A DNA stretch of 64,000 bases, taken from Negativicoccus massiliensis (GTDB lineage: Bacteria; Bacillota; Negativicutes; Veillonellales; Negativicoccaceae). Positions 6,565 to 8,253 of the stretch are shown here, piece after piece; the stretch's first letter is position 1; each line of letters starts with the position of its first letter. The DNA lies in assembly GCA_900155405.1 (NCBI GenBank), contig LT700188.1, positions 992,001-1,056,000 on the forward strand. Direction: 5' to 3'. The position numbers and the translations under genes are program-made. The notes under the pieces are model-generated. The model ran no database searches. It saw nothing but the letters and a program-made list of their open reading frames with translations, and was not told the DNA's origin.

Positions 6565-6593
6565 TTGACTTAAACTAAGTATAATAATATACT
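6565..6593 (+). promoter_or_regulatory. Promoter of autotransporter gene
   Basis: TTGACT (6565-6570), 17-base spacer, TATACT (6588-6593). The transcript would have a ~125-base leader with small hairpins (CGATTTTAATCG near 6648-6659; CCAAACGACTCATTTGG near 6663-6679), leaving room for post-transcriptional control. Confidence 0.72.
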
Positions 6594-6723
6594 GGAACTA
6601 ATCGGCAGACTGTACGCGTTTGTGAGCGCATAGCGGGTCGCCACCAACGATTTTAATCGTTTGCCAAACGACTCATTTGGTGTCGTAGAATACCCGGTCG
6701 TCAAACTATCAGGAGGTTTTGAC

Positions 6724-8082
6724 ATGAGCAAAAAATGGTTGGGAGTATTGGTCGGTCTTTCCGTCATCGGCGGCAGCACGATGGCATTCGCCGCGCCGGC
6801 GCCGGAGGAAGCGCAAGCGTTGAAACACATCGACCTCGGCGGTAACTACTACTACGCGGGCCAACAGCAGCAAGTTTCGCATGATCAGGTATTGAGCCAT
6901 ATCGAAAAGCTGAACAATTTGTTGGAAAAAGATGCCGGCTGGGGAAAAACCGGTTTGGCGGCGGGGTACAACCAGATCCTGCAACATAACGATGCCATTC
7001 AGAATGCGATTGCTGCAATGGGACCGAAATATGCTACCAAATTGACCGGAGCGTATGTAGCCGCGATCACGGGTATAACGGATAAGCTCGTTACAGAATT
7101 CGACATCAAAGGTGAGGGCGATACTCCAGAGGCCGCTCGTGCTCGGGTAACTGAACTCATTAAAGCGATCTCTACAGGCAACGACATTTCGAAAAACGAA
7201 AACGAGAAAAAGCTCGTGGAAGCTGCCAAAGCCGGTTACTATGCGCGCCGCATGGAAACGGAACTGATGGGCGCGTTCCCGGGTGTGGTGAACACCGTAA
7301 ACAAAACGATTGATCAGGTCAACACCAACACCAAAGCTATCGCGGATAACACCAAGGCGCTCGATACCAAAGTAGATAAAGACGCTCAGGCTAAAGTGGA
7401 CGCAGCACAGGACAATAAAATCGCGGCCAACACCGCAGCGCTCGATACCAAAGTAGATAAAGACGCTCAGGCTAAAGTTGATGCCGCGCAGGACAAGAGA
7501 ATTACGACCAACACCGGTGCTATCGCGGCCAACACCAAGGCGCTCGATACTAAAGTAGATAAAACCGCTCAGGCCAAAGTCGACGCCGCGCAAGATAAAG
7601 GCATCGCGGCCAACAAAGCGGCGATCGCGGATATGAACACCAGCTTCAATCAGCGTTTCGGCGAATTGGATCAACGTGTCGACAAAGTTGGCGCGCTCAC
7701 CGGCGCCCTCGCCGGTTTGAAACCGATGCAGTATGATCCTATCGCGCCGACGCAGATCATGGCGGCCGCTTCGACCTATGAAGGCGAACAGGGATTCGCC
7801 CTGGGCATCGCGCACTACACGAAAGAAGATCTCATGCTGCACGCGGGCGTCGCTTACGATGGCGATGACGACTTCATGGGCAACATCGGCGTCACCATGA
7901 AAGTCGGTTCGTCCGCTGACCGCGAAGTTATTCCGGAACGTTACCAAGCCGGTCCGATCTCGTCCGTCTATGTCATGCAGGATGAAATCACCGACTTGCA
8001 GGCGAGAAATGCCGCGCTTACCGCGCAAAATGAAAGAATCCTGGCGGAACTGCAGGCGCTTCGTCAGCACGTCGGCATGTAA
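6724..8082 (+). CDS. Trimeric autotransporter (YadA-type anchor) with C-terminal coiled-coil extension
   Basis: The 452-residue product starts with a Sec signal peptide (cut after AFA, about residue 23), then a helical head, then a low-complexity coiled-coil stalk with three ALDTKVDK..QAKVDAAQD units (about residues 212-300). A YadA-like anchor follows: RFGELDQRVDKVGALTGALA, then four beta-strand segments ending near IGVTMKVG (about residue 396). Such proteins trimerise and form one 12-strand barrel in the outer membrane. Unusually, ~55 more residues follow the barrel, ending in a coiled coil (DEITDLQARNAALTAQNERI). Anchors normally end at the barrel's last strand. ATG 6724 has AGGAGG upstream. 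It probably acts as an adhesin or an outer-membrane tether. A terminator follows. Confidence 0.85.
   Translation: MSKKWLGVLVGLSVIGGSTMAFAAPAPEEAQALKHIDLGGNYYYAGQQQQVSHDQVLSHIEKLNNLLEKDAGWGKTGLAAGYNQILQHNDAIQNAIAAMGPKYATKLTGAYVAAITGITDKLVTEFDIKGEGDTPEAARARVTELIKAISTGNDISKNENEKKLVEAAKAGYYARRMETELMGAFPGVVNTVNKTIDQVNTNTKAIADNTKALDTKVDKDAQAKVDAAQDNKIAANTAALDTKVDKDAQAKVDAAQDKRITTNTGAIAANTKALDTKVDKTAQAKVDAAQDKGIAANKAAIADMNTSFNQRFGELDQRVDKVGALTGALAGLKPMQYDPIAPTQIMAAASTYEGEQGFALGIAHYTKEDLMLHAGVAYDGDDDFMGNIGVTMKVGSSADREVIPERYQAGPISSVYVMQDEITDLQARNAALTAQNERILAELQALRQHVGM
7357..7580 (+). repeat. Three in-frame repeats in the autotransporter stalk
   Basis: A ~41-base unit beginning GCGCTCGATACCAAAGTAG occurs at 7357-7397, 7438-7478 and 7540-7580. 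Copies 1 and 2 are identical over 41 bases; copy 3 differs at a few positions. Spacing is 81 and 102 bases (27 and 34 codons), so the frame is kept and stalk length could change by recombination. Confidence 0.85.
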
Positions 8083-8102: not shown

Positions 8103-8131
8103 AAAAAGGACATCCGCGGATGTCCTTTTTT
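8103..8131 (+). terminator. Terminator of autotransporter gene
   Basis: AAAAGGACATCCG/CGGATGTCCTTTT, a 13-bp stem with a T run. Confidence 0.9.
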
Positions 8132-8253
8132 ATTTGCCCGAATTTCATTAAAGAAAGCCGGACGCGGAAAGGGTAAATTATTTTCTCGATTTACGCGGTG
8201 CTTCGCTCGCATGCGCAGGCTGCGAGTAGAGGCATTCACATCGCGATTTTATT

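Follow-up and report, generated by a model that had tools for sequence, protein, structure and literature searches.

A conserved hinge and a coiled tail beyond the YadA-type anchor of a putative trimeric autotransporter in Negativicoccus massiliensis

Introduction

A gene of Negativicoccus massiliensis encodes a 452-residue protein with a YadA-type membrane anchor whose chain runs on past the last strand of the barrel. The gene lies in the window analyzed here (64,000 nucleotides; positions 992,001 to 1,056,000 of contig LT700188.1), and it raises the question of what such a tail is for. In the parts of the earlier literature covered here, all Veillonella trimeric autotransporters have a coiled or SLH domain past the anchor, similar domains are present in further Negativicutes as well as in Synergistetes and Fusobacteria, and Streptobacillus has versions of the tail with an OmpA domain (Bechon et al., 2020; PMC7549365). 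The SLH versions were assigned to the periplasm (Poppleton et al., 2017; PMC5491611, in the text covered). The function of the coil was left open in the covered text of Bechon et al. (2020). The post-anchor tail is already published, and the present protein is a further member. A preliminary description of the locus had presented the tail as a departure from the norm, a view that has to be given up: the trait was published in 2020 and is common to all of the ~107 sampled and 30 remote Negativicutes anchors considered below.

Organization of the gene and its product

The features of the locus are collected in Table 1. The product has a start like that of a Sec signal peptide (from sequence reading), an N-terminal passenger and a stalk with computed repeats. 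A relative of the passenger head was found in one of the 60 other genomes of the order (61 searched), with 49% identity over 59 residues (genome G108). The direct repeats of the stalk are spaced 81 and 102 bases apart and are a likely site of copy-number change in stalk length. The promoter-like pair is suggestive only; about an equal number of such sites is expected by chance. The hairpin downstream of the gene was not picked up by a consensus terminator scan, probably because its T run pairs into the stem.

Table 1. Features of the autotransporter locus, in positions of the window
Feature	Position	Strand	Evidence
Promoter-like pair TTGACT-17-TATACT	6565..6593	+	10/12 consensus matches
Ribosome-binding site AGGAGG, 7 bases 5' of ATG 6724	6711..6716	+	direct sequence reading
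Putative trimeric autotransporter gene, 452 aa	6724..8082	+	open frame and PF03895
Putative signal peptide, residues 1-23 (MSKKWLGVLVGLSVIGGSTMAFA)	6724..6792	+	read from sequence
Passenger head, largely helical looking	6793..7320	+	no Pfam match over cut-off
Stalk, three imperfect copies of a ~120-base unit (ALDTKVDKDAQAKVDAAQD)	7324..7627	+	repeat search
Long helix into barrel, residues 280-330	7561..7713	+	AlphaFold2
Four anchor strands, residues 343-392	7750..7899	+	Pfam, AlphaFold2, Foldseek
C-terminal tail, residues 396-452 (57 residues)	7909..8079	+	YadA alignment, relatives
Hinge motif IPERYQAGPISSVYVMQDE, residues 403-421	7930..7986	+	conserved in Negativicutes and Synergistota
Helix with heptads, residues 411-451 (41 residues), ~6 nm if straight	7954..8076	+	pooled heptads, AlphaFold2
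Hairpin and T run, probable terminator	8103..8136	+	-17.2 kcal/mol, z -4.55

The anchor and the position of the chain end

The Pfam model YadA_anchor (PF03895) matches residues 335-392 with 39 bits, against a cut-off of 22.7. A single-chain AlphaFold2 model, made from an alignment of 53 relatives, has four strands at residues 343-392 and one helix at 411-451. The anchor shows the helix and four strands per chain of the Hia/YadA/AtaA fold, and a Foldseek search with it returned, at E of 0.001 or less, only the anchors of Hia, AtaA and YadA (3emo, 2gr7, 9vnj, 2lme). Judged from sequence and model, the protein is a YadA-type (type Vc) autotransporter, with a putative trimeric state.

An alignment with YadA (PDB 2lme, 105 residues) reaches YadA residue 100 at query residue 389, so that the usual chain end would fall near residue 394. 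The end at the last barrel strand that is usual in Proteobacteria is absent here; 57 residues, which read SSADREVIPERYQAGPISSVYVMQDEITDLQARNAALTAQNERILAELQALRQHVGM, follow G395. The alignment and the PF03895 bounds thus bear out the ~55 residues first estimated to lie past the last strand. An end at the last strand is not a criterion of the YadA-like family as now described.

BAM substrates carry the signal pattern G-x-x-Phi-x-Phi in their last strand. The last anchor strand here, NIGVTMKVG, contains this pattern internally, as do the last strands of 101 of the 107 Negativicutes and all 44 Synergistota anchors. This settles a concern raised by the preliminary description, in which the final residues of the strand form the BAM recognition signal: the pattern is kept in nearly all relatives, at an internal position.

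The coil of the tail

Scored alone, the heptad pattern of the tail is modest, or borderline, with 233 of 5000 shuffles as good (p ~0.05). Because the single-tail scan was weak, the heptad columns of 34 non-redundant relatives, aligned on the proline of the hinge motif, were pooled. Hydrophobic columns fall at +4, 7, 11, 14, 21, 25, 28, 32, 35, 39, 42, 46 and 49 past the proline, with an Asn at +18. The 3-4 spacing is unbroken over more than six heptads, which argues that the coiled coil in the tail is real. Together with the AlphaFold2 helix, the pooled pattern upholds the original placing of a coiled coil at the end of the tail. The block pLDDT of the model is 93-96 in the tail helix and 65-75, a low-confidence value, in the hinge. 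The coil is probably trimeric, given the trimeric barrel to which it is joined. The protein thus has the coiled segment past the YadA anchor that is the trait of Negativicutes autotransporters with an extra C-terminal coil.

In the tail, Pfam and NCBIfam gave only weak, sub-cut-off coiled-coil matches (ZapB, DivIC, FtsB), and Pfam found no SLH domain (PF00395) in the protein. A PDB search with the tail alone matched FtsB and designed coils, which reflects generic coil similarity. A frameshift or read-through of a normal anchor is out, since the tail sequence is conserved and a tail occurs in all sampled relatives of the class. Placement of the tail within the barrel disagrees, at the level of one chain, with the AlphaFold2 model, which shows a separate long helix.

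A hinge conserved across phyla

The hinge is the best conserved part and adjoins the membrane; the coil and the tip are less conserved. Its consensus, I-P-[ED]-R-Y-x-x-G-P-I-S-S-V-Y-V-[ML]-Q-[DK]-E, opens tails in Veillonellales and Synergistota, where Y, P and Q are invariant and the second Y, G and E nearly so. The mean information per position is highest in the hinge (3.3 bits), followed by the barrel (2.8) and the coil (1.7); the hinge value is partly a selection effect, since the set was chosen partly by part of the motif itself. Those positions that played no part in the selection (I, P, E/D and R ahead of the pattern; V, M/L, Q, D and E behind it) average ~3.15 bits. Counts of the hinge class (motif A) are slightly low, because a few sequences that deviate from motif A at a single residue, L028 and L111 among them, were placed in the class of other tails; L111, titled a Bacillota MAG, is counted as Synergistota, which leaves the conclusions unaffected. 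Fusobacterium has a shortened hinge, ETPQYVVQNEV, with the pattern Y..TP.Y.[IV]Q[DN]EV. When 150 genomes of the class were queried with the tail alone, matches came only from the order of N. massiliensis itself, in autotransporter-like frames.

The conservation of the hinge across Veillonellales and Synergistota, and its shorter form in Fusobacterium, appear to be new relative to earlier work. The covered text of PMC7549365 and PMC5491611 mentions neither a hinge motif nor SPOR tails and does not relate the type of tail to the type of barrel; the supplementary data of Bechon et al., which lie outside that scope, may imply some of these.

Tails are the rule in Negativicutes

This 1.36-Mb genome has six YadA anchors, and every one of them is tailed. 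The hinge described above occurs in the 452-residue protein and in two others (L001, L002), a different coil is found in L006, and the remaining two (L003, L004) have a coil followed by one SLH domain. Four of the six, including both SLH-tailed anchors, lie in one ~15-kb cluster (G000:C1:116000-135000), an arrangement that recalls the adhesin cluster in Veillonella parvula.

A class-wide search found YadA anchors in 140 of 300 genomes. From these genomes and from named Veillonella and Megasphaera, ~107 distinct Negativicutes anchors were collected (distinct sequences, not independent origins), and all extend at least 28 residues beyond the last strand; the one apparent exception is an anchor truncated where its locus ends. 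Thirty further anchors from remote Negativicutes families are also all tailed, by 13-154 residues, many of these tails being short or rich in Pro, Ala and Lys and not coiled. Low-complexity linker tails in this remote group (L222, L225, L233, L235, L240, L241, L243, L244) frequently close with a short amphipathic segment, for example IxxRVxKILxx, which may be a partner-binding peptide.

Outside the class, the sampled Synergistota anchors are all tailed. A Fusobacterium vincentii record (W01) holds two tailed anchors and one (L120, a short YadA-anchor frame) that stops at its last strand, in W, so both kinds of anchor coexist in Fusobacterium. In the eight gammaproteobacterial controls, all plasmid-borne, the chain stops with the last strand, its final residue being F or W. 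The statement that YadA anchors end at the last strand thus holds for these controls and fails for Negativicutes, in which a tail is the rule (~137 sampled).

Tail type, barrel type and wall-binding domains

A tree of anchors built without their tails separates the motif-A rows, all on one side, from the 21 SLH rows, all on the opposite side. Being based on few columns, and with many of its forks weak, the tree is to be read as a trend of two large groups, not as a resolved history. As a trend in these sequences, tail type appears to follow barrel type. Both groups are present in this genome.

SLH and SPOR are families known to bind cell-wall material. The spacer between barrel and SLH domain has a median of 46 residues (range 40-52, n=21), and the coil-only Negativicutes tails a median of 57 (range 28-92). 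Three tails from two Synergistota genomes (L155, L165 and L166 in G394 and G331) have alike C-terminal ends after a long coil. In the two that were scanned, a SPOR domain is matched over the cut-off (E 8e-7 and 2e-7), starting ~110 residues past the barrel. The literature search turned up no trimeric autotransporter described with a SPOR tail. SPOR tails would be a third kind of peptidoglycan-binding module on these anchors, beside SLH and the published OmpA versions. In the present genome there are four OmpM-like SLH porins, and no OmpA-domain protein was found, which suggests SLH as the usual means of tethering to the wall here. On that basis the SLH-tailed paralogues are better candidates for a tether than the protein studied here.

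Comparison with known systems

The nearest published relatives are VtaA-VtaI of Veillonella, from the same order of bacteria, which in the covered text of PMC7549365 and PMC5491611 also carry a coiled or SLH domain behind a YadA anchor; by comparison, the present protein is small (452 residues) and its head has no Pfam match. CbpF of Fusobacterium (PDB 9gh4/9gh5; PMC12012533) shares the YadA anchor, a short coil and a reduced hinge, YDETPQYVVQNEV, but differs in its beta-roll head, which binds CEACAM1. The words 'periplasm' and 'tail' are absent from the main text on CbpF. AtaA-TpgA of Acinetobacter and SadA-SadB of Salmonella have a trimeric periplasmic element below a YadA-type barrel that is thought to aid assembly or anchoring; there the element is a separate protein, whereas here it is predicted to be part of the same chain. 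The helpers SadB and TpgA have been taken as evidence for insertion of a pre-arranged trimer (PMC6604945), and TpgA about doubles the simulated force needed to extract the AtaA anchor (PMC13082670). OmpM, the SLH porin of Negativicutes (PMC10628300), likewise has a trimeric coiled-coil periplasmic stalk on an outer-membrane barrel in related bacteria. Its stalk is N-terminal, with an SLH domain and a 16-strand porin barrel per chain, whereas the present tail is C-terminal and lacks SLH.

Location and possible function of the tail

The preliminary description placed the tail in the periplasm, and this location is supported: each chain is predicted to have four strands, its passenger lying outside, and SLH or SPOR domains stand at the ends of sister tails. 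Its further proposal, a link between outer membrane and cell body, is plausible for the SLH and SPOR tails and less supported for this one, which lacks a binding domain and has a variable tip.

Models can be proposed for what the tail does in the periplasm. The one we favor, at about an even chance, is a periplasmic trimer clamp at the mouth of the barrel, an in-cis counterpart of SadB and TpgA. The three tails would come together beneath the mouth of the barrel and form a trimeric coiled coil. The hinge would guide each chain from the rim of the barrel towards the threefold axis, packing on the rim or on a partner there. The coil would keep the trimer together during insertion by BAM and make the anchor harder to extract under load, doing in cis what separate trimeric helpers do in Proteobacteria. 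In the sister proteins of this genome, the single SLH domain added to the tail would probably make it a true peptidoglycan tether. The clamp is favored because the sequence and length of the tip vary, while conservation adjoins the membrane and goes with barrel type; the split between motif-A and SLH rows on the barrel tree is what would be expected if the hinge meets the barrel. The presence of tails on all sampled Negativicutes and Synergistota anchors, the tail-less ends of the gammaproteobacterial controls and the known trimeric periplasmic helpers also speak for it. Several points weigh against it. The structural model covers a single chain, and the conservation of the motif stems in part from the way the sequences were chosen. 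Many tails of remote Negativicutes are short or Pro/Ala-rich, which means that anchors of this kind can do without a coil, and barrel and tail could be co-inherited without contact.

The coiled tail might itself bind peptidoglycan, or its polyamine modification, and so join outer membrane and wall. The occurrence of peptidoglycan-binding domains on related tails (SLH here, SPOR in Synergistota and OmpA in Streptobacillus, the last from the covered text of PMC7549365), the nearly constant SLH spacer, a length of SLH-less tails (median 57) mostly sufficient for the same gap, and a set of four OmpM-like SLH porins in a genome without any OmpA-domain protein all point this way. A tip that touched peptidoglycan would be expected to be conserved in sequence and length, and neither is: the distal part is poorly conserved in tails of 28 to 92 residues, the opposite of a ligand-bearing tip, the conserved part adjoins the membrane, and Pfam found no known binding domain in this tail. 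Direct binding by the coil is accordingly unlikely in our judgment; peptidoglycan contact by this SLH-less tail is possible, with less support than the clamp.

Alternatively, the hinge may be a docking site for one particular periplasmic partner (a component of BAM or TAM, a protein of the inner membrane or the stalk of OmpM) that delivers or positions the adhesin. The invariant and near-invariant residues shared by two phyla, with a short form in Fusobacterium, suggest an interface, but the barrel rim itself could be the partner, any candidate is hypothetical, and three paralogues of this genome (L003, L004, L006) look intact although their hinges differ. We consider docking doubtful. That the barrel merely tolerates additions past an internal BAM signal, with tails persisting at little function, would agree with the diverse, sometimes short or disordered-looking tails of remote families and is quite improbable, with no tail-less anchor in ~137 sampled of the class and a hinge strongly conserved across phyla.

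Implications

A broader and tentative proposal, to which we assign a low probability, is that IPERYxxGPISSVYVMQ[DK]E marks an ancient barrel-plus-tail class, found in diderm Firmicutes and Synergistota and reduced in Fusobacteria, and serves as a docking site for a putative periplasmic partner that would assemble or hold adhesins in OmpM-tethered bacteria. A membrane-near motif that spans phyla and a tail type that seems to follow the barrel give the question of coil function specific residues to mutate, and the two contrasting tail types inside one genome provide a basis for comparison. The tail also bears on how load-carrying adhesins may be held in envelopes without OmpA-type tethers.
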